From a virus, in the IMG/VR virus record IMGVR_UViG_3300020463_000013, positions 1 through 64,000 of that record: a stretch of DNA of 64,000 bases; one strand, given 5' to 3'. Of the stretch, positions 4,182 to 33,220 are shown piece after piece. A program made the translations under genes and the position numbers. The stretch's first letter is position 1. Every line of letters starts with the position of its first letter. The notes under the pieces are model-generated. The model was not told where the DNA came from. It made no database searches and worked only from the letters and a program-made list of their open reading frames with translations.

Positions 4182-6104
4182 ATGATCAACGTCCAGTTAA
4201 TTAGTATATCCAGTACTTGGATGAATACTTTACCTATGACTCTTTCTTTAATGGAAGAATATAGCAAAACTGATCCTAAATTATGTGACGTAAATTTTCT
4301 ACCATATATTTTCCATACGCATCAAAAAAGTGTACTCGATTTTATGCCTTCTGAGAATATAGATGTAGCAGGAGCAACACTTTATATTTGGAATGCTAGT
4401 AGAAGTCTAAAACTCCTTAGGGAAATAAAAGCAAATAATCCTAATTGCACTACTATTGTAGGCGGTGGCAATGCACCTTACTATGATAAAGAAGCAGAAC
4501 AATTTTTAAGAGAACATCCTTATATAGATTTTATAATTCATAAAGAAGGAGAAGATCCATTAAGACAAATTTTACTCTATAAAAAGAACTTGATAGAAAA
4601 AACAGAAATTGATAGCGTATCATACTTAGAAAAAAATCATTATAAAAGACACAAGTTAGCAATATTCCAAAGTTTAGATACACCTTCTCCTTTCAAAAAT
4701 AAAAATTTTTTACGCTGTATGGATCAAGTAGATGAACTAGGATTACTTAGAGGTACAGTTTGGGAAACAAACAGAGGTTGTCCTTATAGTTGTAGTTTTT
4801 GCGACTGGGGAGGATTAGTATCACAAAAAATAAGACAGGTTCCAGATCAAAGACTTTTTGAGGAAATGGAATTTCTTGTACAAAATATGGATGAAATATT
4901 TTTTGGAGATGCTAACTTTGGTATTTTTCCTAGAGATGTAGAAATAACAAAAAAAATTGTTAATTACTATGAAACTTTAGATAATCCGCGTTTAAAAGTT
5001 ATGCATACAGGTAATGCAAAAAACACAACTGACAGAGTATATGAAATAGGAAAGTTACTAAACAAATATAACCTACAAAGATCGGGAGTAAGTTTAAGTT
5101 TACAAACATACACAGACGAAGCATTAGCCAATGTAAAAAGGACTAATATACAAAAAGAAAAATATCAAGAGCTAACATCAAAATTTATAGGTGACGGAGT
5201 TCCTGTTTACACCGATATGATTATTAATTTACCAGGCGAAACATTTAGTTCATTTTTAGATAGTTTAGAAATAGTGTTACAAGGCGATGTTACTGACATT
5301 AGAACTTTCTTATTAGAGATGTATCCTAACAGTGCAATATCACAAGAAGTAGAAAAATTTAAAATAAAAACTAGAAAAAATTTAATACTAAGAGGCGTAA
5401 CTGAAGATGAAAATGAATATACAGAACAAGTATATGAAACATATTCTATGAAATATGAAGATGCTGAACGATTAAGAAGATTAACTATTTTTATTGATAT
5501 TTTACATCAAGGAAAATATTTGTACTACATAGCAAAATACCTTAAAAATATGCATCAAATACGTTTTGTAGATTTTTATCTAGATCTATTTAAAAAGACA
5601 GAAGGCTTTATAAGTGATATTGCAAACAACGATAGAATTTTAGATAGATACAATAACGGTGTAGATATAGAAGCAACTGGAAAAACACCTTTTGATATTA
5701 AATGGGGTAATACTTTTAGAAAACAACAATTTATTTGGACTGTAATTTCAGAAAATAAGAAAACATTTTACGAAGAGATACAACAATATTCAAAAAAATA
5801 TAATGATGTTGCATTAGAAGATCTTATCTTATACCAAAACGATTTAATGATAAGTGCTGATTTTGATCCAGATACAGGAAAGATTAAAAATTACAAATAT
5901 AATTGGTATGATTATTTTAACAATAATAAAATCTTAAAACAAGAACAAAATAAATTATTCTTCTATGATACACATATAGGTACATTGTCAGAACAAATAC
6001 CTTTGAAAGATCCTAGTATCTTTATGAAATATGCGGCAGGGGGACGAAGTTATTTTACCCAAAGGCAGGGTAGTTACATTCATCAATCAATCAAACAACT
6101 TTGA
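4182..6104 (+). CDS. B12-binding-type radical SAM protein
   Basis: The 640-aa protein has a probable cobalamin-binding-like Rossmann N-terminal domain (about 1-150, with TIVGGGNAPY near 91-100). The radical SAM core follows, with C200, C204 and C207 in CPYSCSFCDWGG, the [4Fe-4S] ligands. A long C-terminal region from about 430 has no recognised motif. The family does difficult methylations, ring contractions or cyclisations; the substrate is unknown. A DxHxxG cobalamin signature is not obvious, so B12 binding is uncertain. A paralogue with a very similar cluster motif is at 10157-11740. No clear Shine-Dalgarno is seen, and its 3' end overlaps the convergent gene by 18 nt. Confidence 0.8.
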   Translation: MINVQLISISSTWMNTLPMTLSLMEEYSKTDPKLCDVNFLPYIFHTHQKSVLDFMPSENIDVAGATLYIWNASRSLKLLREIKANNPNCTTIVGGGNAPYYDKEAEQFLREHPYIDFIIHKEGEDPLRQILLYKKNLIEKTEIDSVSYLEKNHYKRHKLAIFQSLDTPSPFKNKNFLRCMDQVDELGLLRGTVWETNRGCPYSCSFCDWGGLVSQKIRQVPDQRLFEEMEFLVQNMDEIFFGDANFGIFPRDVEITKKIVNYYETLDNPRLKVMHTGNAKNTTDRVYEIGKLLNKYNLQRSGVSLSLQTYTDEALANVKRTNIQKEKYQELTSKFIGDGVPVYTDMIINLPGETFSSFLDSLEIVLQGDVTDIRTFLLEMYPNSAISQEVEKFKIKTRKNLILRGVTEDENEYTEQVYETYSMKYEDAERLRRLTIFIDILHQGKYLYYIAKYLKNMHQIRFVDFYLDLFKKTEGFISDIANNDRILDRYNNGVDIEATGKTPFDIKWGNTFRKQQFIWTVISENKKTFYEEIQQYSKKYNDVALEDLILYQNDLMISADFDPDTGKIKNYKYNWYDYFNNNKILKQEQNKLFFYDTHIGTLSEQIPLKDPSIFMKYAAGGRSYFTQRQGSYIHQSIKQL

Positions 6105-6677
6105 GATATCGTTCCAAGTAAGGTCGTGCCTAAACAACCAACGCATAATGACCCTTGGCACAGTTTTAAATCTTATTCCGTGCCAGGCATCAGTTCTAAG
6201 TATAATTGGTTTTTCATTTACCATAGACACTTCACAAACTTTTTCCAGTAGCTCCTCGTTTTCACACCATGTGCCAGTCTTGACGTTAAATTCTTTTTGA
6301 TTAGGATGATCAGCATACCATTCAACTATGCTATTATCTGCATTATATAATGGAAATACAAGCGATCCGGCATATCGTGTATCATTTCCATCTTTGTGTT
6401 TACCTACTACATATTCTCCATCAATTTTTGTAAAAAATTTGTTTCCAGCAAGTGTAAGTTTATCTTCGCTATAATGTATTATTGTAAATATGTCATGCAT
6501 TACGCCTGTATCTCTAAGCTCAATAAGTTTTTTACATTCTATAGGAATATCTTCTGAATAAATTTTTGCTTTGAAGTTATCCTCCCCTGAAAAATGATAC
6601 TGAGTAATTCTAGCGGCGGCTTCTATTTCTTTTTTATCTATGTTTAGATTGGGTATTTTAAAATATGTGTTCAGCAT
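6087..6677 (-). CDS. 2OG-Fe(II) oxygenase-like protein
   Basis: In this 196-aa protein, H94-x-D96 (GKHKDG), H166 (DAWHGIRF) and R175 (PRVIMRW) form the HxD...H...R pattern of 2-oxoglutarate/iron dioxygenases. The spacing (about 70 residues between HxD and the distal His) fits the double-stranded beta-helix fold. The likely role is hydroxylation of a small molecule, sugar or protein, with substrate unknown. It is the last gene of a leftward group; its start overlaps the GNAT-like gene and its stop overlaps the convergent radical SAM gene by 18 nt. Confidence 0.6.
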   Translation of the reverse strand: MLNTYFKIPNLNIDKKEIEAAARITQYHFSGEDNFKAKIYSEDIPIECKKLIELRDTGVMHDIFTIIHYSEDKLTLAGNKFFTKIDGEYVVGKHKDGNDTRYAGSLVFPLYNADNSIVEWYADHPNQKEFNVKTGTWCENEELLEKVCEVSMVNEKPIILRTDAWHGIRFKTVPRVIMRWLFRHDLTWNDISKLFD

Positions 6678-7179
6678 ACCATTGATAATCCTTTTCTTGA
6701 GCGTCTCTAAATGTTTTCATTCTTTCCAGCTGAGGAACAAAATTAGTAATACCTGTACGCTTGTTTATTTTTTTTGACAAAAATTTTATAAGACTGTAAT
6801 CTCTATCTGGTTCAAGAGTAAAAATAGCTCTTTCAAAACCCTTGTCTTGTAACCATTCTATTTGATGTTTAGCCATAGATGCTACAGGAGTATGACGCCA
6901 TAATGCTCCATCGTGTGATCTGGTTTTTGGATCAAACCAAGTACGTGTAAGTATACGCACAGTTCCAGGTTGAAAAAAATGATCCTGTATACAACTAAAA
7001 GCAATAATATCTTTATCCGAGTCGTCAAATACTAGAGTCCAATAATGATATTTTTTATAATTTGACTTTAATGATTCTAGCCAATGATTACTTCTACCCT
7101 GATAAGTATCATACAGATAATTTAAATAATCTTGAAATTGTGTTTCATATCCGCTTAACGGTTTTACATTATAATTCAT
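6658..7179 (-). CDS. GNAT-like acyltransferase (tentative)
   Basis: The 173-aa protein matches GNAT N-acyltransferases in length and in predicted secondary structure: strands at YWTLVFDD and IIAFSCIQ, then a strand-rich RILTRTWFDP segment, then a long helix (ASMAKHQIEWLQDKGF) and a strand (RAIFTLEP). The classic acetyl-CoA loop Q/RxxGxG/A is not clear, so the call is tentative. It overlaps its neighbours on both sides by 11-20 nt, in an oxygenase-rich leftward operon. An N-acyl group on an amino product would fit the aminotransferase elsewhere in the island, but this is only inference. Confidence 0.4.
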   Translation of the reverse strand: MNYNVKPLSGYETQFQDYLNYLYDTYQGRSNHWLESLKSNYKKYHYWTLVFDDSDKDIIAFSCIQDHFFQPGTVRILTRTWFDPKTRSHDGALWRHTPVASMAKHQIEWLQDKGFERAIFTLEPDRDYSLIKFLSKKINKRTGITNFVPQLERMKTFRDAQEKDYQWYAEHIF

Positions 7180-7867
7180 ATTTAAAATTCAGCCTTAATA
7201 GTTCACGGTGACCTTTAAACGCTGGTCGACGATGTAACATTCTACGATTATCGTATAGTAATATATCACCCTTTTTCCAAAAATGCTTTTTAAAAAAAAC
7301 TTTACCTCGATCAAGTAGATCTTCTTGATGAATTGGTTTAGTGGATGATATCATTGAACCGGGACTAAAATACAATGTAGTTTGTTTAGTCACAGGATGT
7401 TGCAAACATAAATCTCTTTCTATCACAGAATCTTTATTGTATGCTGTATATTTCTTTGGTACACCATAAGTTATTTTTATTTCTTTAAAATACTTTTTTT
7501 CAGCATCTGTTAATGAGTCATATAATTTATTACAATCTAAAAACTCTGTATAAGTATCATAATCACTTTCTTTAAAGGCTAACAATGTACCGTGATAATC
7601 TCCGGGTGTGTAAGTAAGGTCTCGATGCCAAGGCAAATATGTGTTTCCTAAAATTGCTTCTTCACTAATTTTTTGTACGTAATCTTCATCTTTGATATGA
7701 GTGTTTGATGTTATTTTTAACAACTCTCCAAAATAACTTGCTATCTTTTTTAAGGTATCGTGCGAAAAGGTATCCAAATTAATATTCACTATACCATTAT
7801 TAAAAAATTCAGTCTTTAGGATATCTATATTTTCTAAATTGTTAATTACTTGCATGTTTAAACTCAT
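7169..7867 (-). CDS. TauD/TfdA-type 2OG-Fe(II) dioxygenase, copy 1
   Basis: The 232-aa protein has H81-R-D83 (LPWHRD), and near the C-terminus DNRRMLHRRPAFKGHREL, with distal iron ligand H212 and 2OG-binding Arg at R221 or R225. These are the hallmarks of the TauD/TfdA clade, which hydroxylates small molecules. The next gene (7842-8567) is a clear paralogue with the same YHGTLLAF and DNRRMLHRR motifs, so this is a tandem duplication. The start could instead be the Met at 7855. Substrate unknown. Confidence 0.85.
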   Translation of the reverse strand: MSLNMQVINNLENIDILKTEFFNNGIVNINLDTFSHDTLKKIASYFGELLKITSNTHIKDEDYVQKISEEAILGNTYLPWHRDLTYTPGDYHGTLLAFKESDYDTYTEFLDCNKLYDSLTDAEKKYFKEIKITYGVPKKYTAYNKDSVIERDLCLQHPVTKQTTLYFSPGSMISSTKPIHQEDLLDRGKVFFKKHFWKKGDILLYDNRRMLHRRPAFKGHRELLRLNFKYEL

Positions 7868-8567
7868 ATTGAAAATTTACCCTTAAAAGTTTTCGATGCC
7901 CTTCAAATGCGTCACGCCTATGTAACATCCTTCTGTTATCCCAAAGTATCATACTACCTGGCTCCCAATGATGTTTGAAAGCTAAAGTTTCACAATGCTT
8001 AATAAATTTTTCTTTGTCAATAGGTTTGTTTGTTTCCATAAGTGTTTCAGGACTAAAATACAATGATGTTTGATTAGTTATAGGATGTGTCATTGCCATT
8101 GGCCTAGTCATTACATGTTTTTGTATAACCTTGACTTGTGTTTCTGAAATAAGTCCATCATACTTACCAGGAATACCAAAAGTACAATCGACATCGCTAA
8201 TGTATTGTTTATCTTCTTGATCTAACAATTCATAGGCTTTGTTACAATCTACAAATTCAGTGTGTGTCGGAGTATCAGACTCAACAAATGCTAACAATGT
8301 TCCATGATAATCGCCTATACTGTAACTAAAGTCGTTGTGCCAAGGCACAACAGTATTGCCAAACAGGGCGTCTTCTTGTAATAACTGCACATGTCTGTCT
8401 CCTGGTATGTGATGCTTTCCTGTTATTAATAATTTTCCAAAATAAGATGCAATTTCCTTTAGTGTAGTTGGCTCAATGTTATCAGGGTCTGTTTTAACAT
8501 GCACATATCCACTTTTAAAGTATTCTTTTACTATACTATCTTTATCTTTTATATCATTAATAACCAT
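7842..8567 (-). CDS. TauD/TfdA-type 2OG-Fe(II) dioxygenase, copy 2
   Basis: I place the start at the ATG at 8567 (241 aa, MVINDIKDKD), because AAGGAG sits 7 nt upstream. The longer reading from 8603 would lie 47 nt inside the radical SAM gene. H77-N-D79 (VPWHND) and the C-terminal DNRRMLHRRDAFEGHRKLLR carry the iron and 2OG ligands. It is a close paralogue of the next gene, sharing the SYFGxLL, GDYHGTLLAF, DCNK and LYFSP segments. The two have diverged in the loop regions, suggesting different substrates or regiochemistry. Confidence 0.85.
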   Translation of the reverse strand: MVINDIKDKDSIVKEYFKSGYVHVKTDPDNIEPTTLKEIASYFGKLLITGKHHIPGDRHVQLLQEDALFGNTVVPWHNDFSYSIGDYHGTLLAFVESDTPTHTEFVDCNKAYELLDQEDKQYISDVDCTFGIPGKYDGLISETQVKVIQKHVMTRPMAMTHPITNQTSLYFSPETLMETNKPIDKEKFIKHCETLAFKHHWEPGSMILWDNRRMLHRRDAFEGHRKLLRVNFQYEFKHASN

Positions 8568-9486
8568 ATTCATTCTCCTTGACATGATGAAAGAACGGAG
8601 CAATTTGCCAATTCTCTGTAATACGTCCTCTCATTTCATTTCCAAAATCAGGCACACCTTCATCATCTACTGCCCAGTCTACCAATCTAATAAAAACATT
8701 CTTGTATTTAAACACATATCCTTCCATGTTGTTTACTATTTCTTGTGTTTTATTTTCTTGCATATAATTTTCATCTATTTCTAATTTATCGCAAACAACT
8801 TTTTTAAAGTCCGAAAAATTATAGGTATGGTCATTTCCCATGCTTCTGCCAAGTGTAGCAATAGTTCTTAATCTAACAACAGGAGGTATTTTAATATTAT
8901 ACACATCTGCGTAGTGACACATAAGATCAACTTGATCCTTTATTGTTTTTTCGTTTACGCCTTTAGCAATAATAGTTCCTGTGTTCACTATAAATTTATG
9001 TTTTAGTAAATTTTTTAAAGCTCTGTGCTTTAGTGTAGCATACTTTCCGCTATCTAATATTTTATATATATTATCGTCTGTTGCTCCATTCATACTTAAC
9101 AACACAAGCCTTAATCCTGCTTCTTTTAGTTGCTCCACGTATTCTTCTCTGCCAAGTTTCAATCCATTTGTTGTCAAACTTACTCTATGTCCTAATTTTC
9201 TGACTTCTTGTATGATTTCAAATAAATCATCCCGCATAGTAGCTTCAGCACCAATTAATCTTACAAATGTTCTATTGGGCAGTTTACTAACAAATTCAAA
9301 TAGTTTATTTTTATCCATATCAGGAATTTCTCTGTTAGGAATATAACAGTTAGCACACTCCATGTTGCACCTATGTGTAAGGTCAACCATTATAGCGTCA
9401 AATGTATTTTGTTCTGGATTAAGCAGTTTCATTTTCAAATTTACGTTTTCTAGCTTCTGAGTCTTCAAAATATTGTTCATAATCAT
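8557..9486 (-). CDS. Radical SAM protein with GAEA in place of GGEP
   Basis: The cluster ligands are C40, C44 and C47 (CNMECANC), followed by a MoaA-like TIM-barrel core of about 250 residues. The usual GGEP motif is replaced by RLIGAEAT near residue 80. No auxiliary Cys cluster is seen in the last 100 residues, so it probably carries one [4Fe-4S] cluster. The start is uncertain: 9486 gives 309 aa but overlaps the upstream gene by 68 nt, and the ATG at 9432 (overlap 14 nt) is a good alternative. Its 3' end overlaps TauD copy 2. Substrate unknown. Confidence 0.8.
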   Translation of the reverse strand: MIMNNILKTQKLENVNLKMKLLNPEQNTFDAIMVDLTHRCNMECANCYIPNREIPDMDKNKLFEFVSKLPNRTFVRLIGAEATMRDDLFEIIQEVRKLGHRVSLTTNGLKLGREEYVEQLKEAGLRLVLLSMNGATDDNIYKILDSGKYATLKHRALKNLLKHKFIVNTGTIIAKGVNEKTIKDQVDLMCHYADVYNIKIPPVVRLRTIATLGRSMGNDHTYNFSDFKKVVCDKLEIDENYMQENKTQEIVNNMEGYVFKYKNVFIRLVDWAVDDEGVPDFGNEMRGRITENWQIAPFFHHVKENEYGY

Positions 9487-10102
9487 TAGGAAGATTATTT
9501 TTAGTAAGTTCTATAACATCTTGACTATTTTTAATTATGTTTATATACTCGTCAGTATCTCCACCTTCCCAAGGTGCTCCTAAACAAATTGTATACTTCC
9601 AATCATCAAATGTGTTTGTCATATAGTGCGGCCATCCCCCGTTCATTACAAATAAATTCCTATGATCAGCGGTTGGTTGAACATCATTATCCTTAGTAAC
9701 AAACGTAAGACTGTTAACTTCACCTTGTAGTACAACACGTAATTTATGTTGCCTTGTATTAAAGGACTGTTTACTACAGTCTATATGTACAGCAAGACTG
9801 TCGTTAGGCGGAGTCTTAAGCAAAATTATTCTACCCTTTTTATCTAACCAAGGAAATACTTTTTGTTCAAAAAAATCAATAGTATCTTTATCAGCATATT
9901 CAGTCCAATCCAGATCAGTTTTTCTATTATTTTGTGATCCTGATTTAGTTGTTGCTCCGCCAGGCGTGTACAACGGAAGCATTCTTACTTCTCTATAAGT
10001 ATCCCAAAACCACGTATCATCATTAATTTTTTTGTAGTGATCTAGCGATTGTTTATAGCTTTCAAAAACTATTGGTAATTTAGCGTATAAAATGTTATCC
10101 AT
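9419..10102 (-). CDS. Aspartyl hydroxylase-like 2OG-Fe(II) oxygenase
   Basis: I take the ATG at 10102 (227 aa) instead of the TTG at 10123, because the TTG would fall within a few nucleotides of the predicted transcription start. H106-I-D108 (AVHIDC) and H159 (GGWPHYMTN), with TICLGAPWEGG after it, resemble the aspartyl/asparaginyl beta-hydroxylase-like group. It is the first gene after a strong leftward sigma70 promoter (10132-10160) and leads the oxygenase/radical SAM group down to 6087. Substrate unknown. Confidence 0.65.
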   Translation of the reverse strand: MDNILYAKLPIVFESYKQSLDHYKKINDDTWFWDTYREVRMLPLYTPGGATTKSGSQNNRKTDLDWTEYADKDTIDFFEQKVFPWLDKKGRIILLKTPPNDSLAVHIDCSKQSFNTRQHKLRVVLQGEVNSLTFVTKDNDVQPTADHRNLFVMNGGWPHYMTNTFDDWKYTICLGAPWEGGDTDEYINIIKNSQDVIELTKNNLPNDYEQYFEDSEARKRKFENETA

Positions 10103-10131
10103 AAAATATTTAGCGACTCTCAATTTATTTA

Positions 10132-10160
10132 ATTATAACAAAGGCATGTGTCAAAGTCAA
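10132..10160 (-). promoter_or_regulatory. Near-consensus sigma70 promoter
   Basis: On the minus strand, TTGACT (10160-10155), a 17-bp spacer and a perfect TATAAT (10137-10132). It overlaps the last codon and stop of the upstream radical SAM gene (10157-11740) and drives the oxygenase gene starting at 10102. Confidence 0.8.
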
Positions 10161-11740
10161 CCTATATCTGCATATCTTTTACTAAAATCTGTATGATCTA
10201 AGGCAAAAAAGTACACGTCTGGTGATACGTAGCAATTATGTTTTTCACTATAAATGCCAAAAATCTTAGTATCTAATATGTGACTTGCTTCAACTTTCAT
10301 ATGGTTGTGTATATTCTTACATACTGTTTCATTTAGTAGAGAGAAATCATTTTCTGCGGCACTTTTTTTATAAACTTCTGTAAAAGCAAAACACGTAAGG
10401 ATGTCTGCTAAATCTTGTTCACCGCTTCCTGTTACAATATTAGATTTGGACCATCCTGGTATTCCATTATCAATAGAATTGTGTATGCCTTCTATTGTTG
10501 AGAACTCTTCCTTAGTTTCGTTTAAAATAGTTAGAGGTTCAAATTTGACTTTATACTTTTCCTGGTATTCAACATTAGACGCAGGACTATTAGGAATAAG
10601 TTCCCAAAAGAAACATATAATCCATTTGATGCCAGCCTTCTTAAATTCAAGCATCTGATTAAATTGTTTTTCAATAGTTTGACCAGGTAAGCCTACTATT
10701 ATTTCTGCTACAATATTGATATCTGGATTTTTTTGATTAAACTCTTTTAACAATGTTTTTTGTTCTTCCCAGGGTATTTCTGGTCTGTCAATATTTTCAA
10801 GCACATCTTCATGTATATCTTGTAAAGATATTTTGATGTTGTTAGGTCTTGAGTGTGTGCTGTTTACCATTAGATCGAACATCTTAAACACTCTGTCTTT
10901 GTGTAGTTTGGCCAAGTTAGAGATAAAAAATCTCCCCCTGTTTACAGCATATTCTGTAATTTCTATATCTTCTTCATATATTCCCCAATTAGCATCAGTG
11001 GGCACAACCATTACAGGCAGTGTAAATAGGAAGTCTAATTCTTCTTTCCAACTTGATTTTTTACGTTTGACTTTATGATGTAGTCCACTAGACCAATCGC
11101 AGAAACTACATTTGTACGGACAACCTCTAGCACGTTCCCAACGTAGTTGTAAAAATTTTACATCTGTGTTATTTTTTACTTCTTCTACATGCTTTTTAAT
11201 TATATCTTTTTCGCTCATTATAGAACTTATTTTATTGTATTCTTTGTCATAAAATATTTTATGAGGATAAACTTTATCTTTAGTAACAGTGTTTACTCCA
11301 TTTTGTATCTCACTGTTGTCAAGTATGCTATCTAAAATTTTAGCAAATGCTTCTTCTCCATCACCGTATACAGCATAATCAATGTAATTATGCTCTTTAA
11401 AATATTTCTTGTCTGTCAAAGCAACAATATCAGGACCTCCAACAATTATTTTAATATTAGGATTTTTTTGTTTTACTTTTTTAGCAACCTGATATGTAAA
11501 ATCGCTGTTCCAAACAAATACAGATAAACACAGAATATTAATTTTTTCTTTTGTTATTATTTCTGTTATTTGATCAACAGTGTAGAAAGGTTGCCATAGT
11601 TGATCTGTCCATTCAATCCTATCATGATTGATGGCATTAACATATCGATAATAAGATTTAAGCATCCAATAATTTGGATTAATGCTTATAAAATTAATAT
11701 ATTTCGATGTAAGGTATAAATTTACAAACTTTAGTTTCAT
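10157..11740 (-). CDS. B12-binding-type radical SAM protein
   Basis: The 527-aa protein has a Rossmann-like N-terminal domain (about 1-150; IKIIVGGPDIV near 97-106 and YAVYGDGEEAF near 122-132, typical of B12-binding radical SAM proteins). C207, C211 and C214 follow in CPYKCSFCDWSSG. The GGPD and GDGEE segments match the cobalamin-binding domain family better than the paralogue at 4182, though the DxHxxG His loop is not obvious. Likely chemistry: methylation or a related radical rearrangement, substrate unknown. An AATAAATA motif at 11749-11756 is only 9 nt from the ATG, so I doubt it is its promoter; transcription from the upstream gene is likelier. Confidence 0.82.
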   Translation of the reverse strand: MKLKFVNLYLTSKYINFISINPNYWMLKSYYRYVNAINHDRIEWTDQLWQPFYTVDQITEIITKEKINILCLSVFVWNSDFTYQVAKKVKQKNPNIKIIVGGPDIVALTDKKYFKEHNYIDYAVYGDGEEAFAKILDSILDNSEIQNGVNTVTKDKVYPHKIFYDKEYNKISSIMSEKDIIKKHVEEVKNNTDVKFLQLRWERARGCPYKCSFCDWSSGLHHKVKRKKSSWKEELDFLFTLPVMVVPTDANWGIYEEDIEITEYAVNRGRFFISNLAKLHKDRVFKMFDLMVNSTHSRPNNIKISLQDIHEDVLENIDRPEIPWEEQKTLLKEFNQKNPDINIVAEIIVGLPGQTIEKQFNQMLEFKKAGIKWIICFFWELIPNSPASNVEYQEKYKVKFEPLTILNETKEEFSTIEGIHNSIDNGIPGWSKSNIVTGSGEQDLADILTCFAFTEVYKKSAAENDFSLLNETVCKNIHNHMKVEASHILDTKIFGIYSEKHNCYVSPDVYFFALDHTDFSKRYADIG

Positions 11741-11764
11741 TGCTTGCGTATTTATTCGTCACTA

Positions 11765-12475
11765 TTATCTATACTTCAAATGGCTGAGTATTCTATTGAC
11801 GTTTAACCAATCTTTTCTAACATTCATTACAACCATATCACAAGCATCTTGTTGTGCATGTAACCGATGAGACTTACGTGTGTCTACATAATATACATGA
11901 TTAGGCAACGCATCTACTCGTTGTCCATTTACTTCCCATGCTAACCCGTCAAGATTAGCCTCGCCTAAAAAGGCGATAAGTCTAATAGTATCTCTCTTTA
12001 AATACATGTGGTCTCTATGCCAAGGATAAAATCCTCCAGCATTTAATCTAATAAAAAAAGACCTACCCATATCATAATAATCAAAAACAGATTTCATACA
12101 AGTAAATTTATTAGCAGCTTCAGTTGGAAAGCTGAATTCATATTCTCTTGGTTTGTATCCTAGTTTAGCATGAATGTGCGATAAGCCTGTAACACTTGTT
12201 GGATCATCACCTTCTAAACCGTATAGCAAAACTGATTCGCGATTGTTCATTATTCCTTCTCTAGGTTGAAAAGGTGTAAACCAGTCATTGTCTAAAAAAT
12301 GTTTGACATTGGTTTGGTATTCTTTTTGATCTATAGAGAAGTCTAACGGTTCCCAATCACCTATCACTTGTAATTGTAACTCACAAGCTATATCCTCTTC
12401 GCTTGGATATAACTTATCTGTAATTTGATCATAGATAGCAGGAACATCAGATATTGCATATTTTGGATCGGCCAT
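11765..12475 (-). CDS. 2OG-Fe(II) oxygenase-like protein
   Basis: In this 236-aa protein, H153-R-D155 (YPWHRDH) follows an FFIRLNAGGF strand, and the distal H203 sits in DTRKSHRLHA. This fits a 2OG-Fe(II) dioxygenase fold, and the total length is right for the small phage enzymes. AGGAAA lies 6-8 nt before the ATG. It is the first leftward gene of the divergent promoter region, and TTGACT-17-TAACAC at 12507-12535 is its likely promoter. Substrate unknown. Confidence 0.7.
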   Translation of the reverse strand: MADPKYAISDVPAIYDQITDKLYPSEEDIACELQLQVIGDWEPLDFSIDQKEYQTNVKHFLDNDWFTPFQPREGIMNNRESVLLYGLEGDDPTSVTGLSHIHAKLGYKPREYEFSFPTEAANKFTCMKSVFDYYDMGRSFFIRLNAGGFYPWHRDHMYLKRDTIRLIAFLGEANLDGLAWEVNGQRVDALPNHVYYVDTRKSHRLHAQQDACDMVVMNVRKDWLNVNRILSHLKYR

Positions 12476-12487
12476 TAATTTTTCCTG

Positions 12488-17469: not shown

Positions 17470-17475
17470 AGTAAC

Positions 17476-19525: not shown

Positions 19526-19526
19526 A

Positions 19527-20093: not shown

Positions 20094-20103
20094 AGGTAAA
20101 ATT

Positions 20104-22433: not shown

Positions 22434-22468
22434 ATAATTGAACTTTGGAAAAAGGAACAAAAAGGTTT

Positions 22469-25782: not shown

Positions 25783-26486
25783 AATATGTTTCCAAGGTAA
25801 TCAAGCAGTGTTGTATGCACTTGTTCTGCCATGTTAGCATGTGCTTTTAATCCAGGATGCATGCCGTCTAATCCATAATCATCTATCATAGTTAAAGTAT
25901 GAACATCTACTTCAAACCATTTAGGTAAATCATTTGGTAACAGACTTGTAATTTGAAATGGTCCTACTGGTCTTACAAAATTAAAATGCCAATTTTGTAT
26001 TCCTTTACTATCTAAATATCTTTTTGCATGATCTATATTTTGTAAAGTTTCATATTCTAAATTTCTTTGCCAAAAAAAGTCTTTGTAATATTTGTTGTTA
26101 ATATTAAATCTCTCAATATGCATTTGTGCATTATATCTTCTAATATATTTTTTTTTGGTATAAGATGGACTTATTTGAAAAATTGTGTCTTTTGTAAAAA
26201 AACATGTGCGGTAAATATTTGTCCATAAAATAACTACAAAATCTGTTTCTTCTAATTTAGAATTGAGAATAATTTCAGTGATTTGTTTGTTAGATGCTCC
26301 ACAACAAGATAAATTTTCCAATGGCAATTTAATTTTTTTTGCTAACAATGCTGGCCAGGCATCTTTGCTTGGAGGGGAATCGCGAAGTTTTCTATATTTC
26401 TTTTTATCAGAAAAAAACTCTTGTGCCGAATCAGGTAAACTTTTGCCATATGTATGACTACACCCAAAAGCTACAAGTCTGTTCAT
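25779..26486 (-). CDS. SGNH hydrolase, tandem copy C
   Basis: The 235-aa protein has FGCSHTYGKSLPD at 7-19 (nucleophile S10), CGASNKQI (block III Gly/Asn) near 60, and DGMHPG (D207-x-x-H210). It is one of three tandem paralogues and the most diverged. Start and stop overlap the neighbouring genes by 4 nt. In glycan clusters such proteins are O-acyltransferases or esterases. There is no signal peptide, so it acts in the cytoplasm. Confidence 0.78.
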   Translation of the reverse strand: MNRLVAFGCSHTYGKSLPDSAQEFFSDKKKYRKLRDSPPSKDAWPALLAKKIKLPLENLSCCGASNKQITEIILNSKLEETDFVVILWTNIYRTCFFTKDTIFQISPSYTKKKYIRRYNAQMHIERFNINNKYYKDFFWQRNLEYETLQNIDHAKRYLDSKGIQNWHFNFVRPVGPFQITSLLPNDLPKWFEVDVHTLTMIDDYGLDGMHPGLKAHANMAEQVHTTLLDYLGNIF

Positions 26487-27160
26487 ATTTGCTCCTCTAT
26501 CCTTGCAAATATATTTTCCGCTAAATCAACATGTGCTGACACACCAGGATGCAATCTATCTGCTCCGGTATCTTCTAATAAATCTAAATTTTGTATTGGA
26601 GCAGAAACCCATGCATCCATTTCTTTTGTAAATTTAGATGTTATAGGTCGTATGCCTTTTCTTTCAAAAGTAAAATGAAAATTTTTAATTCCTTTTTTTA
26701 ACAAGTAATTGTAAGAGTGATCAATACTTAGTTGTGTTTCATATCTTGAATTTTCTTCTGTATGGAAAAGTTCGTAATATCTATAATTATAAAGTCTACG
26801 CCATCTAGGATTTTGCTTAAACTTTTTTATATAACCTGGAGTAAGTTGTTTGAACTGTAATCCTTTTTCGTCAATTGGTTCATCTTGCAAAAAACAACTT
26901 CGACTATGATGCGTCCATAAAACAAAAACAACATCATCCTTTTCAAAATTTGTGTTAACTATATTGTAATGAATTTGTTTGTTAGATGCTCCACACGAGC
27001 CTAGATTTACACATTCCATATCTAACTTTTTTGCTAAAAGGTTAGGCCACGCAAACTGGCTTGGTGGTGGCATTGGAGCGTCTAAACTTTTTGTAGTCAA
27101 ACAATCTGGCAATGATTCCCCATATGTGTGGCTACATCCAAATGCTAAAAGTCTGTTCAT
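26483..27160 (-). CDS. SGNH hydrolase, tandem copy B
   Basis: This 225-aa protein has the nucleophile S10 in FGCSHTYGES, CGASNKQI near 60 and D201-x-x-H204 (DRLHPG). The LPDCLTTKSLDAPMPPPSQF region is like that of copy A, so A and B are the closest pair. The shared WTHHSRSCF and NFHFTF segments also group them. ATGA overlaps on both ends show strict co-translation of the triplet. Confidence 0.8.
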   Translation of the reverse strand: MNRLLAFGCSHTYGESLPDCLTTKSLDAPMPPPSQFAWPNLLAKKLDMECVNLGSCGASNKQIHYNIVNTNFEKDDVVFVLWTHHSRSCFLQDEPIDEKGLQFKQLTPGYIKKFKQNPRWRRLYNYRYYELFHTEENSRYETQLSIDHSYNYLLKKGIKNFHFTFERKGIRPITSKFTKEMDAWVSAPIQNLDLLEDTGADRLHPGVSAHVDLAENIFARIEEQI

Positions 27161-27822
27161 AATTGTTTCTCTATCATTACATGCATTTTTTCTGCAATAT
27201 CTACATGTGCTAATAAGCCGGGATGATATCCGTCTTGTCCAACATCTTCTATTAAATTTAAATTATTTACTGGTGCAGTAAACCAACTATATGTGTTGAA
27301 TATCTTAGATGATATAACCTTACCATCAAAAGTAAAATGAAAATTTTTAATTCCTTTAGCTTCTAAATGTTTGTAAGCATGGTCAATACTTATTTGTGAT
27401 TCATATCTCGTATTTTCGTTTGTGTGATAAAGTTCATAATAGCCCTGATTATAAATTCTTCGCCATTTAGGAATATTACTACGTTTTTCTATCCAACCCG
27501 GCAAAAGTTTGTTAATTATAGGCTTTCCGTTTGATGCAGTAGTATCTGCAATAAAACAACTACGATTATGATGTGTCCATAAAACAACAACAATATCATC
27601 TTCATCGAAATCTGTTTCTACTATTCTTAAGTGAATTTCTTTGTTAGATGATCCACTGCTACTTAAATTTACACATTCTCTACGTAATTTTTGAGATAAA
27701 ACTTTAGGCCATGCAAACTGACTAGGAGGTGGCATTCTATCTTTCGCATTTCCTGTAGGCAAACAATCAGGAAGGCTTTCCCCATAAGTATTACTACATC
27801 CGTATGTTAAAAGTCTTTTCAT
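27157..27822 (-). CDS. SGNH hydrolase, tandem copy A
   Basis: This 221-aa protein has S10 in YGCSNTYGES (His of the usual GCSHT changed to Asn), SGSSNKEI near 60 and D197-x-x-H200 (DGYHPG). The change in the nucleophile block may alter activity. It overlaps the glycosyltransferase gene before it by 29 nt. Each copy keeps S, G, N and D/H residues, so all may be active, probably on different acceptors or acyl groups. Confidence 0.78.
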   Translation of the reverse strand: MKRLLTYGCSNTYGESLPDCLPTGNAKDRMPPPSQFAWPKVLSQKLRRECVNLSSSGSSNKEIHLRIVETDFDEDDIVVVLWTHHNRSCFIADTTASNGKPIINKLLPGWIEKRSNIPKWRRIYNQGYYELYHTNENTRYESQISIDHAYKHLEAKGIKNFHFTFDGKVISSKIFNTYSWFTAPVNNLNLIEDVGQDGYHPGLLAHVDIAEKMHVMIEKQL

Positions 27823-28474
27823 ATTCTTTTCTTAACCAATCAAAGTCGTTTATTAGCCGAAGGTTAGACCCGCTAGAAAAGCCAAACTCCATACCAGCGG
27901 TAGCGCCTGCCAAAGCGTATTTGCCAAATGGTCTATCGTGTCCCACGGTTGTCCAAGTTTTAAGTCTTTCATCTGTTTCTCCTTGTTCTTGTCTATCTAT
28001 TGTTTTACTTGCTAATTTAGCACATTCTCTAAATGCACTACGCCAAGTATTCCACTCATCAGTGTTGAAGGATGTAATGTTACTTACAATATCAAAAGCT
28101 ACAAAATTTTTACTCAGACTAGTTGTCATATCTGTGCTAGTTGTATCCATATCTAATACAAGAGATTTTGGCAATAGTTTTAATCCACCATATCCATAGT
28201 TTAAATTATTTATGGGATTTATACTTTGCCATACATATACAGTATTATATGAAATACATAAATTTTCATCGAACTTAAAAGTAGGTAATATATCTGCATC
28301 TCCGTCAATCACATAAAACATTTTTGTGTCGCAAATTTGTGCGGCTTTTTTGTGTGCATTGTGTATACCTTTTATTCCATGAACACGTTTAATAAAAGGA
28401 ATTTGTTTTTGTAATTTTAGAAAACGTTGTTCACAGTCAGGTTCCTGATAACTTAAAAATACTACATCAAACAT
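27794..28474 (-). CDS. GT-A-like glycosyltransferase, DGD type, copy 2
   Basis: The 226-aa protein opens MFDVVFLSYQEPDCE. VIDGDAD puts D57-x-D59, a metal-binding DxD candidate, near residue 57. It shares VFLSYxEP, KRVHGxxG, AHKxA and DGD with the 29861 gene, so they are paralogues. GT-A enzymes use NDP-sugars and a divalent metal. Donor and acceptor are unknown. It lies between the twitch radical SAM gene and the SGNH triplet, a typical glycan-decorating neighbourhood. Confidence 0.65.
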   Translation of the reverse strand: MFDVVFLSYQEPDCEQRFLKLQKQIPFIKRVHGIKGIHNAHKKAAQICDTKMFYVIDGDADILPTFKFDENLCISYNTVYVWQSINPINNLNYGYGGLKLLPKSLVLDMDTTSTDMTTSLSKNFVAFDIVSNITSFNTDEWNTWRSAFRECAKLASKTIDRQEQGETDERLKTWTTVGHDRPFGKYALAGATAGMEFGFSSGSNLRLINDFDWLRKEYEKTFNIRM

Positions 28475-29864
28475 TTACAAATGCCCATTCATTAAAAGAA
28501 GGAACAAGTAAAGGAAATGTAGTTTCGAAATTTGTACCTCTTCTTTTATCATATTCTGTAATATATTGTACAAAATTATATCTTGTTAGTTCTAATTCTT
28601 TAGGATCAGAAATATCTTGAAGTTCGCATATACTGTCGTATATTCTTTTTAACTTTATATTTTCTACAATTCTATCAATAGGGATTTCATCTGTTGCTTT
28701 AAGCACATAATAGTCTAACAGTTTTCTTGGAGCAATACGCATATCTAAAAATTTAGGATTTCTCACATATGCAAAATCCATTGATATATCTGCTCCAGTC
28801 GAATTCCTTAGTTTGTTTATATCAGGAATCATCAAATATAAAGAAGTAACACTTAACACATTCACTGCACACATAATACTAAGTCTTACTTTACGACAAC
28901 GTTTTAATAATTTTCTTAAATTATTTAACCATAGATTATAATCCATTCCAAAACGTATGTAATCATTTTGATCTCCTTTAGCTTCAGCACTAGTAAAGAT
29001 TGTAATTTCCTTGACAGAATTTGTATCTAGTAATAGATTTAATTTTTTTGTAAAAATTTTCCAGATATTACCAGGTGGGCAAGCATTTGTGTTAATTGCA
29101 AACTTTAAATTAGGCTGTGGATTTTCCAGTAGATAATCAATTACTTTTGATGTATGTTTGCTTAGTAATGGTTCGCCACCAGTAATACGAAAATCATGCA
29201 TGTGTTTTACAGCTTCCGGAAACCATTTCCAGAAAGCTTCAATATAAGGATTGTGTTCTTTTTCTAAATATTGTACTTCATCAGGATTAATAAATCCAAA
29301 TTCTCTGTTGTTGCCTTTATAATCTATAAACTTGTATGTGCCTTTTTGTTTAACTTCTTCTGTCCATTTACTACTAAATGCTGGTCCGCAATATGCACAT
29401 TTAAAATTACACACATTACTAAAACTTACTTCAACGTATTTAGGATAAATGTCTTCTGTTCCATCAGAATTAATTATTTCTTCTAAGTATGGCAAACTCC
29501 AAGAAGAAATGCTTTTTGTAACCCTATCACTAAAATGATCGCTGTTATCTTCTATACGCCAACAATAATCACATTCTACGGGACGCTCGCCATTAAGCAT
29601 CTCTCGTCTACGTTCTTTTTTAAATTCTGTATTATGTAATGCGCCAGGGTCTTTTTCTAGCTCATCTAATTTTATTTTATGTGCACCTACATGATGACAA
29701 CTATGTGTAATACCACTTCCTAAATGTGTAGTAACCTGTGTCCATTTGGCAAGACAAAATCCCGGACCTTTGGAATCTAATTTATCTTTTAAAAATTGTA
29801 GATTATCTGGGTCATGTATATCAACTCTGTTGTCCAGAAATCTTTTAAAATCTTTTTTGCTCAC
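28467..29864 (-). CDS. Twitch-type radical SAM protein
   Basis: The 465-aa protein has an N-terminal Cys module C37, C56, C98, C101 and core ligands C152, C156, C159 (VCNFKCAYCG), then RITGGEP near 227. It shares the module order with the 17476 and 20104 proteins but is more distant in sequence. The FCLAKW...HSCHH...CDYCWR pattern suggests an auxiliary cluster bound by the N-terminal module. Substrate unknown; its neighbours are two glycosyltransferases. Confidence 0.83.
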   Translation of the reverse strand: MSKKDFKRFLDNRVDIHDPDNLQFLKDKLDSKGPGFCLAKWTQVTTHLGSGITHSCHHVGAHKIKLDELEKDPGALHNTEFKKERRREMLNGERPVECDYCWRIEDNSDHFSDRVTKSISSWSLPYLEEIINSDGTEDIYPKYVEVSFSNVCNFKCAYCGPAFSSKWTEEVKQKGTYKFIDYKGNNREFGFINPDEVQYLEKEHNPYIEAFWKWFPEAVKHMHDFRITGGEPLLSKHTSKVIDYLLENPQPNLKFAINTNACPPGNIWKIFTKKLNLLLDTNSVKEITIFTSAEAKGDQNDYIRFGMDYNLWLNNLRKLLKRCRKVRLSIMCAVNVLSVTSLYLMIPDINKLRNSTGADISMDFAYVRNPKFLDMRIAPRKLLDYYVLKATDEIPIDRIVENIKLKRIYDSICELQDISDPKELELTRYNFVQYITEYDKRRGTNFETTFPLLVPSFNEWAFVNV

Positions 29865-30742
29865 CTAAATCTCCTAGAAGGAGGAGAATATACTGTTTTA
29901 AAAAATTTACTTTGTTCGTTATCTAATGCAGTTGTACTAATAGGAAGTCCTAGATCTTGTAATACTTTGCCATATTCAGCGATCATTTGTTCTACAGGTT
30001 TGTTTTTAATTTTTTCCCAATATTCATTAAGCCATTTAAAATCTCTTGTTACGGAATGATCCCAGTCTGTAGCTAATATCTTTTGGCAACCATCCCTAGC
30101 ACCCATAATAGTATACAAGCCATTGTTAACATCTGCACCAACATTTAACCAAACAAGTAATCTATGATAATTTTGCCACCAAGTGTCATTTTCAAGATCT
30201 TCTACTTTGGTACCCCTATTAAGTGACATCTTTACACCTTCTCTAAAACCTGCTCTCCAGGCTTGATGTGGTGTTGAACTTATAATACTAGTTGAAAAGT
30301 TTTCATTTAGTTGGTAGTAGTTGTCAAAATAACAAAACTCTATAAGTGTATCATCAGACCCGTCTGTATTTTCATGTGTCTTCATGTTAGCAACAAAGTC
30401 TTTGGTCCACATCTTTAAACTTCCGTTGCCATATTTCAAACCATTCACATCAATATTACCACACCAACTAAACTGGTAATCATCATTTACACCTAATATA
30501 TCTAGATCTAACACAACATTTAAAAATTCTGGATCTATTACAGTATCACCATCAACTGTGACGAAGTGTTTAGTTTCTGATAAGTCTGCACAGGCTTTAT
30601 GTGCGGCATCAGAACCTTCTACTCCATGCACTCTTTTAGCATAAGGAACTTTAGTAAGTAAATCCGCATAATTCTTTTCCGCATTAGGCTCATCATATGA
30701 AAGAAAAACAATATCACAGTCTTGTACTTTTATTTTATTCAA
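29861..30742 (-). CDS. GT-A-like glycosyltransferase, DGD type, copy 1
   Basis: The 293-aa protein has VTVDGDTV with D64-x-D66 as the probable metal-binding DxD. VFLSYDEP near 12-19, KRVHGVEG and AHKACADL match the 27794 gene. A longer C-terminal half (about 200-293) includes a helical and basic end (SPPSRRFR). It overlaps the radical SAM gene by 4 nt. Donor and acceptor unknown. Confidence 0.65.
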   Translation of the reverse strand: MNKIKVQDCDIVFLSYDEPNAEKNYADLLTKVPYAKRVHGVEGSDAAHKACADLSETKHFVTVDGDTVIDPEFLNVVLDLDILGVNDDYQFSWCGNIDVNGLKYGNGSLKMWTKDFVANMKTHENTDGSDDTLIEFCYFDNYYQLNENFSTSIISSTPHQAWRAGFREGVKMSLNRGTKVEDLENDTWWQNYHRLLVWLNVGADVNNGLYTIMGARDGCQKILATDWDHSVTRDFKWLNEYWEKIKNKPVEQMIAEYGKVLQDLGLPISTTALDNEQSKFFKTVYSPPSRRFR

Positions 30743-31247
30743 TTGTTTCTCCTATAAGATGATAGTAGCTTTGCATGTCTGGTTGTGTGATAATTTTACA
30801 ATCAGAAAAATATTTTGCATCAAATTTTAAAGTTTTATCAAAAAAATCTTCAAATCTACATTCCAAAGTACACAACAATTTGTTAGAATTATTTACATCA
30901 GTAACAAAAAACTTTTTATAAGTCTGAGATGGTGGAAATTTATCCTTAAAAGTATGTGTAATGCTAAAACTTTTTTGTTTATGGTCTTGAATTATGTATA
31001 TACTATTTGCAATACGTTCGGTCGTTTTGCTTATTGTAAAAATGTTTGCAGATACACTTTCTTTTTTGTCTTTTTTTTCTAATACATAATCTTGTTTTTT
31101 TACTACTATGTAATCATCAATGTTCTCAGTACATTCAGCAAACTTCGTATACATTTCTGCACTTATTTCTAAGTATTCGAATTTATCATCAAGTTCATTA
31201 GTAATCTTAACTACTTTACCTTCAGTATTATAACCTACATATAACAT
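30735..31247 (-). CDS. Phage protein of unknown function
   Basis: This 170-aa protein starts in a TAATG overlap with the 31247 gene and its end overlaps the next gene by 8 nt. It opens with YVGYNTEGKVVKI and is charged, with many Lys, Asp and Phe. No enzyme motif, membrane segment or repeat is seen. Its place in a glycosyltransferase operon suggests a helper or small binding protein, with no direct support. Confidence 0.6.
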   Translation of the reverse strand: MLYVGYNTEGKVVKITNELDDKFEYLEISAEMYTKFAECTENIDDYIVVKKQDYVLEKKDKKESVSANIFTISKTTERIANSIYIIQDHKQKSFSITHTFKDKFPPSQTYKKFFVTDVNNSNKLLCTLECRFEDFFDKTLKFDAKYFSDCKIITQPDMQSYYHLIGETIE

Positions 31248-32053
31248 TATTTTAAATGCTCCAACAATTTGTCTGTAAGAAATTCGTCTTCTACATAATG
31301 TAACACACCTTTTTGTGTAAAATTACCCAAATATATATAGTCGTCTAAATATATATCAAGATAATCTGTCCATTTTTCAGGAACATTCTCCCAATGCTGT
31401 GCGTGTGGTTTCATATGTGTGAAAGTTAATGGTGTTTTTATGTCAGGTAAACCTAAAATCTTGTAAGCAATAGCACAATTAAGATCAAAACTTTGCCATG
31501 TTTGTTTTTTCTTAGGAGAAAACATGCGATAAAACTCTTGCCAGTTTTTAGAAATTATTTCAACTAGGGTAAAAAATTCTTTTGCAATATCACACTTTTT
31601 AAAATAGTAAAGTCCGCTATATAAATTTGGTAAATTATTTGCAACAAATGTTTTTCTATAATAATTAGTTGTTACAGCATCACCTCTATAAGTTATTACA
31701 TCTGTTGTAAAAGCAATAGCATGATTGTAACATCTGTACCACCAATCTTTTATATTTTCTAAAATAAGCATATCAGCATCCATTACAATAGTATATTCAT
31801 ATGGCGATAAATGATATATTTTCCATCTATTTTCTATTTTCCAATCACTATTCTTAGCAAGATTGCCCCATGGTATAGGAATAATCTTATCAAATGCATG
31901 CATGTATTCATCCGGAACAGCATCATCTGTAATAAGACTGACATTTTCATTATTGTGTTTATGAATACTTATTGCTAGAGCATATGCTTGTTTTATATAA
32001 TCTGTTTTATGATTATTTTCTGCGAGTATACAAAATCCTCTATTCATTTGCAA
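31247..32053 (-). CDS. GT8-like glycosyltransferase, copy 2
   Basis: The 268-aa protein opens GFCILAENNHKTDYIKQAYALA and has VMDADML near 91-97, with D92-x-D94 as the metal-binding DxD. NLYSGLYYF near 140 and a C-terminal THMKPHAQHW (a likely second metal or UDP-binding His site) fit a GT-A fold of the GT8 type. The first Met could instead be at 32047. It is a paralogue of the 32040 gene. The substrate is not known. Confidence 0.65.
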   Translation of the reverse strand: MQMNRGFCILAENNHKTDYIKQAYALAISIHKHNNENVSLITDDAVPDEYMHAFDKIIPIPWGNLAKNSDWKIENRWKIYHLSPYEYTIVMDADMLILENIKDWWYRCYNHAIAFTTDVITYRGDAVTTNYYRKTFVANNLPNLYSGLYYFKKCDIAKEFFTLVEIISKNWQEFYRMFSPKKKQTWQSFDLNCAIAYKILGLPDIKTPLTFTHMKPHAQHWENVPEKWTDYLDIYLDDYIYLGNFTQKGVLHYVEDEFLTDKLLEHLK

Positions 32054-32879
32054 AATCCTTGTCGATATATCTATCTAAACTAAATTTATTCATAACGTGT
32101 ATATCAGAACCTTTAATACTTGCTGGTATAACATCTCTTTTATCCTGTAACAATATACTAAATGTGTCATCATTTATATCTAACAGCGTGTCTCTGTCAG
32201 TAATCATATACAATGTAGGCATAACTTTAGGCCAAGCTACAGTTTTATGGTTTGATAAAATATGCATAGCAATACTAAATGCAAAATCATTTCTATAAGT
32301 ATTTGACACAATGTTATATAACAGTTTATAATAACTCCAATTGTCTCTAATAAATTGTATAAGATTAAAAAGTGTTTGTGTTTTATAATTTTTTGTAAAA
32401 TAAAACACTGTTGCCCAATACATAGGAATACTTGTGTTGCTTACAAGTAATTCGGGTGTGTTATCTCTAGTTGTATTCAAATCAAAAGCATATCGATTGA
32501 TCATAAAATCGTAGCGGCTGTCAAAACAATTTAACACAGATGCACTACTGAGAATAAAATCTGTATCTATTACAAGAGTTTGATCATAAGGTGTAATATC
32601 AAAACACGAAGCTCTAGAAAAATTCTTCCAAGTAGCATCTATATAAGATTCTCCATCATAAAACTTTTTTTGTTGTGTTTCACTAGATGCTTCTGTGGTA
32701 ATAATTTTATCAATGTATTTTGTGTAGAATTTATATTTTTCTAAATGCTGAGAACTATCTGTAACAAGTGTAACATCTAAATTTGTATATTTTTTTACAC
32801 GTTTAGCACAAAAAATTGCTTGTTTTATATAATCAACCTGTTCATTATTATTAGCAAAAAGCAGTACGCCTTTGGTCAT
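32040..32879 (-). CDS. GT8-like glycosyltransferase, copy 1
   Basis: The 279-aa protein opens GVLLFANNNEQVDYIKQAIFCA, similar to copy 2, and has VIDTDFI near 104-109 with D105-x-D107. The distance of about 100 residues to the DxD matches GT8-type sugar transferases. A late VMNKF near 265 may replace the His/Lys donor site. ATGA overlap with the 32876 gene. Two diverged copies suggest two sugar-adding steps. Confidence 0.6.
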   Translation of the reverse strand: MTKGVLLFANNNEQVDYIKQAIFCAKRVKKYTNLDVTLVTDSSQHLEKYKFYTKYIDKIITTEASSETQQKKFYDGESYIDATWKNFSRASCFDITPYDQTLVIDTDFILSSASVLNCFDSRYDFMINRYAFDLNTTRDNTPELLVSNTSIPMYWATVFYFTKNYKTQTLFNLIQFIRDNWSYYKLLYNIVSNTYRNDFAFSIAMHILSNHKTVAWPKVMPTLYMITDRDTLLDINDDTFSILLQDKRDVIPASIKGSDIHVMNKFSLDRYIDKDFANE

Positions 32880-33220
32880 TGATCTAATAACCCTTTAACA
32901 GTTTTATCATTTTTAAAATTTTGATATTTAATGATATAATTATTTGTACTTTGCACATATACATCGACAATGTTATCAATAAATTCTTGTGCATTTTCTA
33001 TTTCTACCGGAGTTTTATTGCTATCTAACAGAACCAAAGGCTTTTCCTTTGCAAGCATAAAATTACAAAATGAAATTAGTTCGGGAGTAACTTCAAAAGC
33101 ATAACCATTTTCATAATGATAACATGTATCTTGATATTGCTTGTAAAGGATATTTTTTTGATTGTCCAGAGTTTGAGAATAATTTGCAAACTCTAATGCT
33201 TTTTGTAACTGTGATTCCAT
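32876..33220 (-). CDS. Small conserved-type phage protein, first gene of the leftward island operon
   Basis: This 114-aa protein has a strong AGGAGG ribosome-binding site 5 nt before the ATG and a sigma70 promoter (33240-33268) just upstream. It looks alpha-helical (QKALEFANYSQTL... YKQYQDTCYHYENG). I recognise it only as a type seen near tail genes of T4-like marine phages. It may belong with the virion genes rather than the island pathway. Confidence 0.65.
   Translation of the reverse strand: MESQLQKALEFANYSQTLDNQKNILYKQYQDTCYHYENGYAFEVTPELISFCNFMLAKEKPLVLLDSNKTPVEIENAQEFIDNIVDVYVQSTNNYIIKYQNFKNDKTVKGLLDQ

Follow-up and report, generated by a model that had tools for sequence, protein, structure and literature searches.

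Hypervariable phage host recognition clusters with radical S-adenosylmethionine (radical SAM) cassettes have already been described. In pelagimyophages such a host recognition cluster (HRC) is a hypervariable island set among virion genes; it contains tail fibres, GT8-type glycosyltransferases and radical SAM cassettes, and modification of the host surface has been suggested for it (Zaragoza-Solas 2020, PMC7029224). Jumbo cyanophages such as S-SSM6a carry sugar/amino-acid clusters of 8-12 genes with carbamoyltransferases, a methyltransferase, a halogenase and 2-oxoglutarate (2OG) enzymes, thought to decorate a polysaccharide or to make a metabolite (Iyer 2021, PMC7824862). Glycosylation of virion proteins has a precedent in mycobacteriophages (Freeman 2023 as cited in PMC12619734), although the available parts of that account describe no comparable multi-enzyme tailoring island. 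We examined a further locus of this kind in the IMG/VR virus record IMGVR_UViG_3300020463_000013, a linear record of 78,386 bases; its positions 1 to 64,000, the whole stretch analysed, are called the window. Here 33 tightly packed genes (I1-I33, positions 4182-33220) form an enzyme island beside tail-fibre genes. We favour, at a rough probability of 0.45, the reading that this is a modular, phage-specific cluster at a hotspot by the tail-fibre genes, which makes a variable sugar-type decoration, most likely on the virion.

Like the HRC, the locus is a large, non-syntenic island by fibre genes whose cargo is exchanged. It differs in its setting: the HRC is defined between VrlC and gp14 (PMC7029224), whereas here the slot is bounded by genes g1-g4 and by I27 with the fibres, in another lineage of the T4 superfamily. 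Neither VrlC nor gp14 was recognised by Pfam or PHROGs in the window flanks, the giant gene F6 lying outside that scan. The phage belongs to the T4 superfamily, portal, gp46, gp47 and a gp6-like wedge protein all being present, and the portal and wedge are closest to the jumbo phages Phosso, PA5oct and SCTP-2, with the portal 28% identical to that of the pelagimyophage Mosig, which places the phage outside the pelagimyophages (Kyanoviridae). One relative whose island is laid out alike comes as a contig of 261,806 bases. With the jumbo cyanophage cluster the island shares a carbamoyltransferase (I22, about 33% identical to its counterparts there) and 2OG oxygenases (I4, I5, I9). That cluster also holds a halogenase and HAD phosphatases, kinds for which I1-I33 gave no Pfam match, and radical SAM enzymes go unmentioned in the available parts of its description (PMC7824862). 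The corresponding parts of the HRC account do not mention a conserved core cassette, an empty site, sharing across lineages or an aminotransferase (PMC7029224). Within the open-access literature, neither paper, as far as available, describes the first three of these features, so that any novelty is provisional. An earlier note on this DNA, which had not recognised the cluster as a unit, must nevertheless be tempered by these published islands.

The island is a succession of nearly overlapping genes, as that note had proposed for its 29 kb; the open reading frames are where it placed them, and intergenic DNA in and around I1-I33 amounts to 488 of 39,514 bases. A search with I22 returned 80 viral loci, most of them carrying parts of the same island (the best 80 loci were retained in each such search, and since assemblies partly overlap, not all are independent phages). 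Loci centred on I21 were fetched as a check not centred on I22. There, I22 comes immediately after I21 in 73 of 80 loci. Among contigs that reach far enough, I15 precedes I21 in 59 of 62 loci and I10 does so in 48 of 54, and I10 stands before I15 in all 61. These genes make up a core of fixed order (I10, I15, I21, I22, I23). Between I15 and I21 stand zero to seven genes from a common pool, their kinds differing among relatives, and this cargo, as well as the left arm I1-I9, is exchanged even among close relatives. Within the cargo of several loci the pair I12-I13 is repeated. In the sister contig G011, gene g1 is 91% identical to that of the window, yet the left arm has been replaced, I2-I9 being swapped out; a nearly complete left arm (86-97% identity) occurs in one close contig only, 3300020430_001657 (L248). 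The full gene set is thus not a fixed unit, and the refuting condition of the earlier note, a set that never recurs, applies to that full set only; the core does recur in order in many phages, including a second phage lineage that also holds it amid fibre genes. This recurrence supports the view that the island enzymes form one pathway-like unit. A chance gathering, at a recombination hotspot, of auxiliary genes that have nothing to do with one another would accord with the strong mosaicism, which in one locus (L101) takes identity to the window from 28 to 97% between neighbouring genes. The conserved core order, over many loci and two lineages, and the intact CxxxCxxC motifs in all eight radical SAM proteins make that explanation barely credible.

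The place into which the island was set could be recognised from loci fetched with I29, 80 in number, among which I31 is present in 74, I32 in 71 and I33 in 68. In their minimal state, F2-F1-I33-I32-I31-(I30)-I29-I27 abut ThyX, a gene of 106 amino acids and g3-g2-g1, and the last four of these left neighbours are the left island flank of the window; g1-g2-g3 border the empty site in L210, L214, L221, L228, L235 and others. This layout argues that I27, I29, I31, I32 and I33 go with the fibre genes as one module, the insert consisting of I1-I26 and I28. The ThyX-type thymidylate synthase gene of the empty site (L228:11521-12186) matched nothing in the window, nor anything between 60 and 78 kb of the record. 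No radical SAM-type gene occurred at the locus in 11 empty-site loci. Their records mostly hold one weak, below-cut-off radical SAM match elsewhere (five in G015), and filled-site records hold 3-15; up to 15 radical SAM matches per record is an unusual concentration for viruses. The 15 matches of one 169-kb viral record fall between 16.5 and 53.4 kb (G007:C1:16551-53399, the record of L203). Empty-site members group in one clade of both the I29 and the I31 tree (SH-like approximate likelihood ratio test 96 and 99%), and the core state requires at least four changes on well-supported branches, the trees being unable to tell gain from loss; the weaker F1 tree forces at least one change. F1 is longer in some empty-site phages, but its length gives no conclusion as an empty-site marker, since the rows compared share ancestry and in some the lengths of two genes are added together. 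A transposon-like boundary is not supported either, because no direct or inverted repeat of at least 14 bases common to both island edges was found.

The core is nearly confined to viral sequences, as far as these collections reach. I21 has 307 viral relatives and only two orthologs in about 85,000 bacterial and archaeal genomes; since the collection scans require exact peptide patterns, divergent bacterial relatives could escape them. Both orthologs lie on contigs collinear with Mosig, one of which carries VrlC. Borrowing from SAR11 hosts was rejected as the main source: 297 genomes of that order gave one ortholog-level I21 match, on a short Mosig-collinear contig. This near-confinement suggests that the pathway evolved in phages, rather than by piecemeal borrowing from hosts. 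Among 50,697 phage records, orthologs of I10 and I21 occurred only in Pelagibacter phage Mosig EXVC030M, a distant T4-like SAR11 isolate with Pelagibacter ubique HTCC1062 as laboratory host, whose published culture also contained phage Lederberg and whose core lies amid tail-fibre genes; I29 and the radical SAM protein I28 had no relatives in those records. The Mosig core proteins are 53% (I10), 54% (I15), 54% (I21), 56% (I22) and 44% (I23) identical to those of the window, as against 28% for the portal, 24% for gp46 and 26% for gp47, a difference suggesting that the cassette has been shared horizontally. Presence of the core in this isolate makes product and acceptor directly testable.

The core enzymes are largely of sugar-type families. 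I15 is a DegT aminotransferase, as the earlier note had stated, closest to sugar aminotransferase families and related, below cut-off, to PseC and LegC. The carbamoyltransferase that it had named is I22, which passes both Pfam cut-offs (Carbam_trans_N 72.3 bits; Carbam_trans_C 217.9 bits, E 8.5e-65) and has GdmN, novobiocin carbamoyltransferase and TobZ as its closest solved structures. It shares both domains with the TobZ/GdmN/NovN O-carbamoyltransferases but scores far under the NodU equivalog cut-off, and its O-carbamoylation of a sugar is putative. The I21 alignment (A1) has a mean column identity of 70%, and the methyltransferase claim finds support in a weak Rossmann profile match of I23. 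The predicted GT-B fold of I10, missed in the earlier note, was recognised from an AlphaFold2 model (pLDDT 88.5) with Foldseek matches to PimA (E 1e-5, probability 1.00, TM score 0.44-0.48); its sequence profile had no PDB match.

Among the accessory enzymes, all eight proposed radical SAM proteins (I1, I6, I8, I13, I17, I20, I21, I28) match Pfam Radical_SAM, I21 and I28 slightly below the cut-off as whole proteins and above it as open frames. Three pass the 170-bit cut-off of the twitch-domain family N_Twi_rSAM (NF033640): I17 (289 bits), I20 (274) and I28 (309.6). I1 and I8 combine B12-binding and radical SAM domains, like the KedN5-family C-methyltransferases (NF033712) that are their best match, yet their scores (202 and 116 bits) stay far under its cut-off of 700 bits, so that they are relatives of that family and not members. 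The two B12-binding radical SAM genes (4182-6104, I1, and 10157-11740) imply a cobalamin-supplying host and may bear on host identity. The two ATP-pyrophosphatase domains lie in I16 (loop SGGADST; no PDB match by sequence profile) and in the homologous N-terminus of I20 (27%), and a nitroreductase, I18, overlooked before, was found by profile. Other assignments stood in part. Of five proposed 2OG oxygenases, I4 and I5 exceed the TauD cut-off, I9 matches a beta-hydroxylase profile (1.2e-8), and I2 and I7 show the HxD motif only. The four proposed SGNH hydrolases (I14, I24, I25, I26) keep GCS[HN] and DxxHP, with weak Pfam support in which I25 alone passes a cut-off (DUF6071); a PDB profile search with I25 gave no match. 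Of four proposed GT-A-like transferases, I31 agrees with a glycogenin-like GT8 profile (1e-7) and I32 is its paralog, while I29 is so classed by predicted fold (AlphaFold2 pLDDT 86; Foldseek RmlT, SunS/ThuS, E about 1e-4, TM score as low as 0.32-0.37) and I27 as the paralog of I29. Virion genes, claimed for both sides, are clear on the right; on the left a single fibre-like gene with an Mtd_N domain (g4) is followed by non-virion genes.

We propose that I10, I15, I21, I22 and I23 would build a carbamoylated amino-sugar-like unit, which the swappable radical SAM, nitroreductase, oxygenase, ATP-pyrophosphatase and SGNH genes may tailor differently in each phage. The transferases I27, I29, I31 and I32, which stand beside the fibre genes even without the island, would then attach this unit, or its sugar base, to a protein of the virion, a fibre being the likeliest, and the particle could thereby alter its chemistry with its fibre protein unchanged. 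The product would be sugar-based and would serve host recognition or evasion of defence. Such a decoration, raised in the earlier note as a glycan, amino sugar or natural product, agrees with the family content and with the glycosyltransferases fixed beside the fibres. That note had left attachment and export to the host surface side by side; we recognised neither a membrane nor an export gene in the island, and this inclines us to a product that is soluble or bound to the virion.

The main rival holds that the island remodels a surface glycan of the infected host (O-antigen or capsule), exported by host machinery, and so blocks co-infection by other phages. This is the reading published for the pelagimyophage islands (PMC7029224) and, so far as the available parts go, for the jumbo cyanophage sugar clusters (PMC7824862). 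Sister phages that have, at this locus, a KdsA-like DAHP_synth_1 gene together with one for a UDP-sugar dehydrogenase, and the sigma-70-like promoters inside the island, which also fit early expression and host-directed action, speak for it. Against it, we recognised among I1-I33 neither a flippase or polymerase nor any other membrane protein (none shows transmembrane-like hydropathy except, borderline, I28; 4 of 76 cargo clusters reach it), the glycosyltransferases remain by the fibre genes without the island, and two distant lineages keep the cassette amid fibre genes. We regard this reading as possible, though doubtful. Should the acceptor be the host surface, the island would specify superinfection-exclusion chemistry in abundant marine bacteria; should it be the virion, a chemical layer would be added to phage host recognition and immune evasion.

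Virion decoration, which we continue to prefer, faces several difficulties. The proposed product, its acceptor and the expression of the island are predictions from the genes. The glycosyltransferase calls for I29/I27 and I10 are predicted folds with low TM scores (0.32-0.48). Sugar-nucleotide synthesis genes were not recognised in the island, and precursors would come from the host or the unsequenced remainder of the genome. I29 shows recombination of its own, being 83% identical in L168 against 47% for F1 there, and is hence not a pure virion marker. Finally, twitch-type radical SAM enzymes often act on peptides, making direct protein modification possible. In its full form, the latter alternative has the radical SAM, 2OG, nitroreductase and methyltransferase enzymes modifying the fibre protein itself, in the manner of ribosomally synthesized and post-translationally modified peptides, with glycosylation as a side activity; the eight radical SAM proteins by the fibre genes, three of them in NF033640, the separate cysteine-rich partner I12 and the beta-hydroxylase-type oxygenase I9 would suit it. 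We consider it improbable, given that DegT, the carbamoyltransferase and the GT-B transferase all belong to sugar chemistry; a precursor peptide or recognition element did not turn up either, no search having been aimed at them. A further possibility, that the enzymes make a free small molecule resembling an antibiotic, toxin or cofactor, which works within the host cell or leaves it at lysis, would explain the resemblance to antibiotic-tailoring enzymes (TobZ/GdmN-type carbamoyltransferase, KedN5-like B12 radical SAM protein, nitroreductase, 2OG oxygenases), and the available parts of one account make a related suggestion for S-SSM6a (PMC7824862). It too seems unlikely to us: Pfam scans of the island recognised no exporter and no scaffold-forming enzyme (polyketide synthase, nonribosomal peptide synthetase or terpene synthase), and the fixed place by the fibre genes would be left unexplained.

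Between the window and its three nearest relatives, the fibres F1-F5 keep 78-98% identity (76-99% over the last 100 residues; F6 and g4 were left out of this comparison, g4 being 68% identical in G011), and these relatives share just 17-33% of cargo genes among themselves. Constant fibres with exchanged cargo fit variation by chemistry, and suggest that in some phages chemistry adds to protein sequence as a source of diversity. We advance only tentatively the broader idea that a lineage of large T4-like phages diversifies its virions by chemistry and not by fibre sequence, a swappable, phage-specific, radical SAM-rich pathway putting different small-molecule or sugar decorations on nearly constant fibres. 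If true, these phages would have an equivalent of the variation seen in bacterial O-antigens or flagellin glycans.

Table 1. Features in and around the island (window coordinates)
Feature	Position	Strand	Assignment	Basis or remark
g1, g2, g3	145..2626	+	left flank; g1 DUF2201 metallopeptidase/VWA, CobT-like	Pfam, PHROG
~106-aa (amino acid) gene	2604..2927	+	last left-flank gene common with empty-site phages	tblastn 40-44% to L228, L221, L235
g4	2977..4137	+	fibre-like, Mtd_N domain; left insert edge	PF18454 9.5e-13
I1	4182..6104	+	B12-binding radical SAM	KedN5-like, far under family cut-off
I2-I9	6087..12475	-	left arm: 2OG-type oxygenases I2, I4, I5, I7, I9; radical SAM I6; B12-radical SAM I8; I3	
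I10	12586..13425	+	core GT-B-fold glycosyltransferase	predicted fold, conserved core
I11	13422..13889	+	short APH-kinase-like fragment	below Pfam cut-off
I12, I13	13874..15008	+	small cysteine-rich protein and radical SAM protein	recurrent pair
I14	15001..15756	+	SGNH-type protein	motifs GCSN, DCNHP; weak DUF6473
I15	15753..16832	+	core DegT/DnrJ/EryC1/StrS aminotransferase	Pfam 6e-86
I16-I20	16816..22392	+	swappable cargo: ATP-pyrophosphatase I16, N_Twi radical SAM I17, nitroreductase I18, I19, ATP-pyrophosphatase-radical SAM fusion I20	
Promoter upstream of I21	22405..22433	+	sigma-70-like, TTGACA-17-TATATT	11/12 matches, intergenic gap
I21	22445..23320	+	core radical SAM enzyme	alignment A1; viral relatives
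I22	23323..24831	+	core O-carbamoyltransferase, TobZ/GdmN-like	Pfam, solved structures
I23	24832..25782	+	core putative methyltransferase	weak Rossmann profile match
I24-I26	25779..27822	-	three tandem SGNH-type proteins	motifs; 37-56% mutual identity
I27	27794..28474	-	GT-A-like, I29 paralog	present at empty site
I28	28467..29864	-	N_Twi radical SAM	NF033640; missing at empty site
I29	29861..30742	-	GT-A-like glycosyltransferase fixed beside fibre genes	predicted fold
I30	30735..31247	-		same place in some relatives
I31, I32	31247..32879	-	GT8-type glycosyltransferases fixed beside fibre genes	
I33	32876..33220	-	small protein fixed beside F1	
F1-F5	33272..40276	-	fibre/virion module, right side	PHROG tail/virion F2, F3, F4; F1, F5 by position and conservation
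Promoter upstream of F1	34136..34164	-	sigma-70-like, TTGACA-17-TATAAT	perfect

Sigma-70-like promoters occur in the intergenic gaps above chance (3 of 8 sites with at least 11 matches; P 3e-5, a value inflated because the gaps are AT-rich). They suit transcription by the host polymerase and cannot tell a virion product from a host-surface one. The T4 late promoter sequence TATAAATA occurs twice in the whole window, once near F1 (34191-34184), which is too few for mapping late units. Neither tRNA genes nor Rfam families were detected in the window.

Beyond F5, between the fibre genes and the gp6-like wedge, F6 is one open frame of 4967 amino acids (window 40296-55199). At the left island edge g4 is retained in G011, G009 and G010. 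The sister phages mentioned above carry the KdsA-like DAHP_synth_1 gene (L168:6083-6856), a uroporphyrinogen decarboxylase gene (L168:7851-8792) and a porphobilinogen deaminase fragment (L170:20607-20867) among the fibre-side glycosyltransferases or in the island, and other islands hold UDP-sugar dehydrogenase, epimerase and cytidylyltransferase-like genes. In another locus the portal gene is followed downstream by one for a protein of 242 amino acids (L008:16566-17294) that is transferase-like by eye. The CobT-like DUF2201/VWA gene (window 145-1452; L228:13707-16048) stands, again by eye, beside a MoxR-like AAA ATPase gene in empty-site phages.

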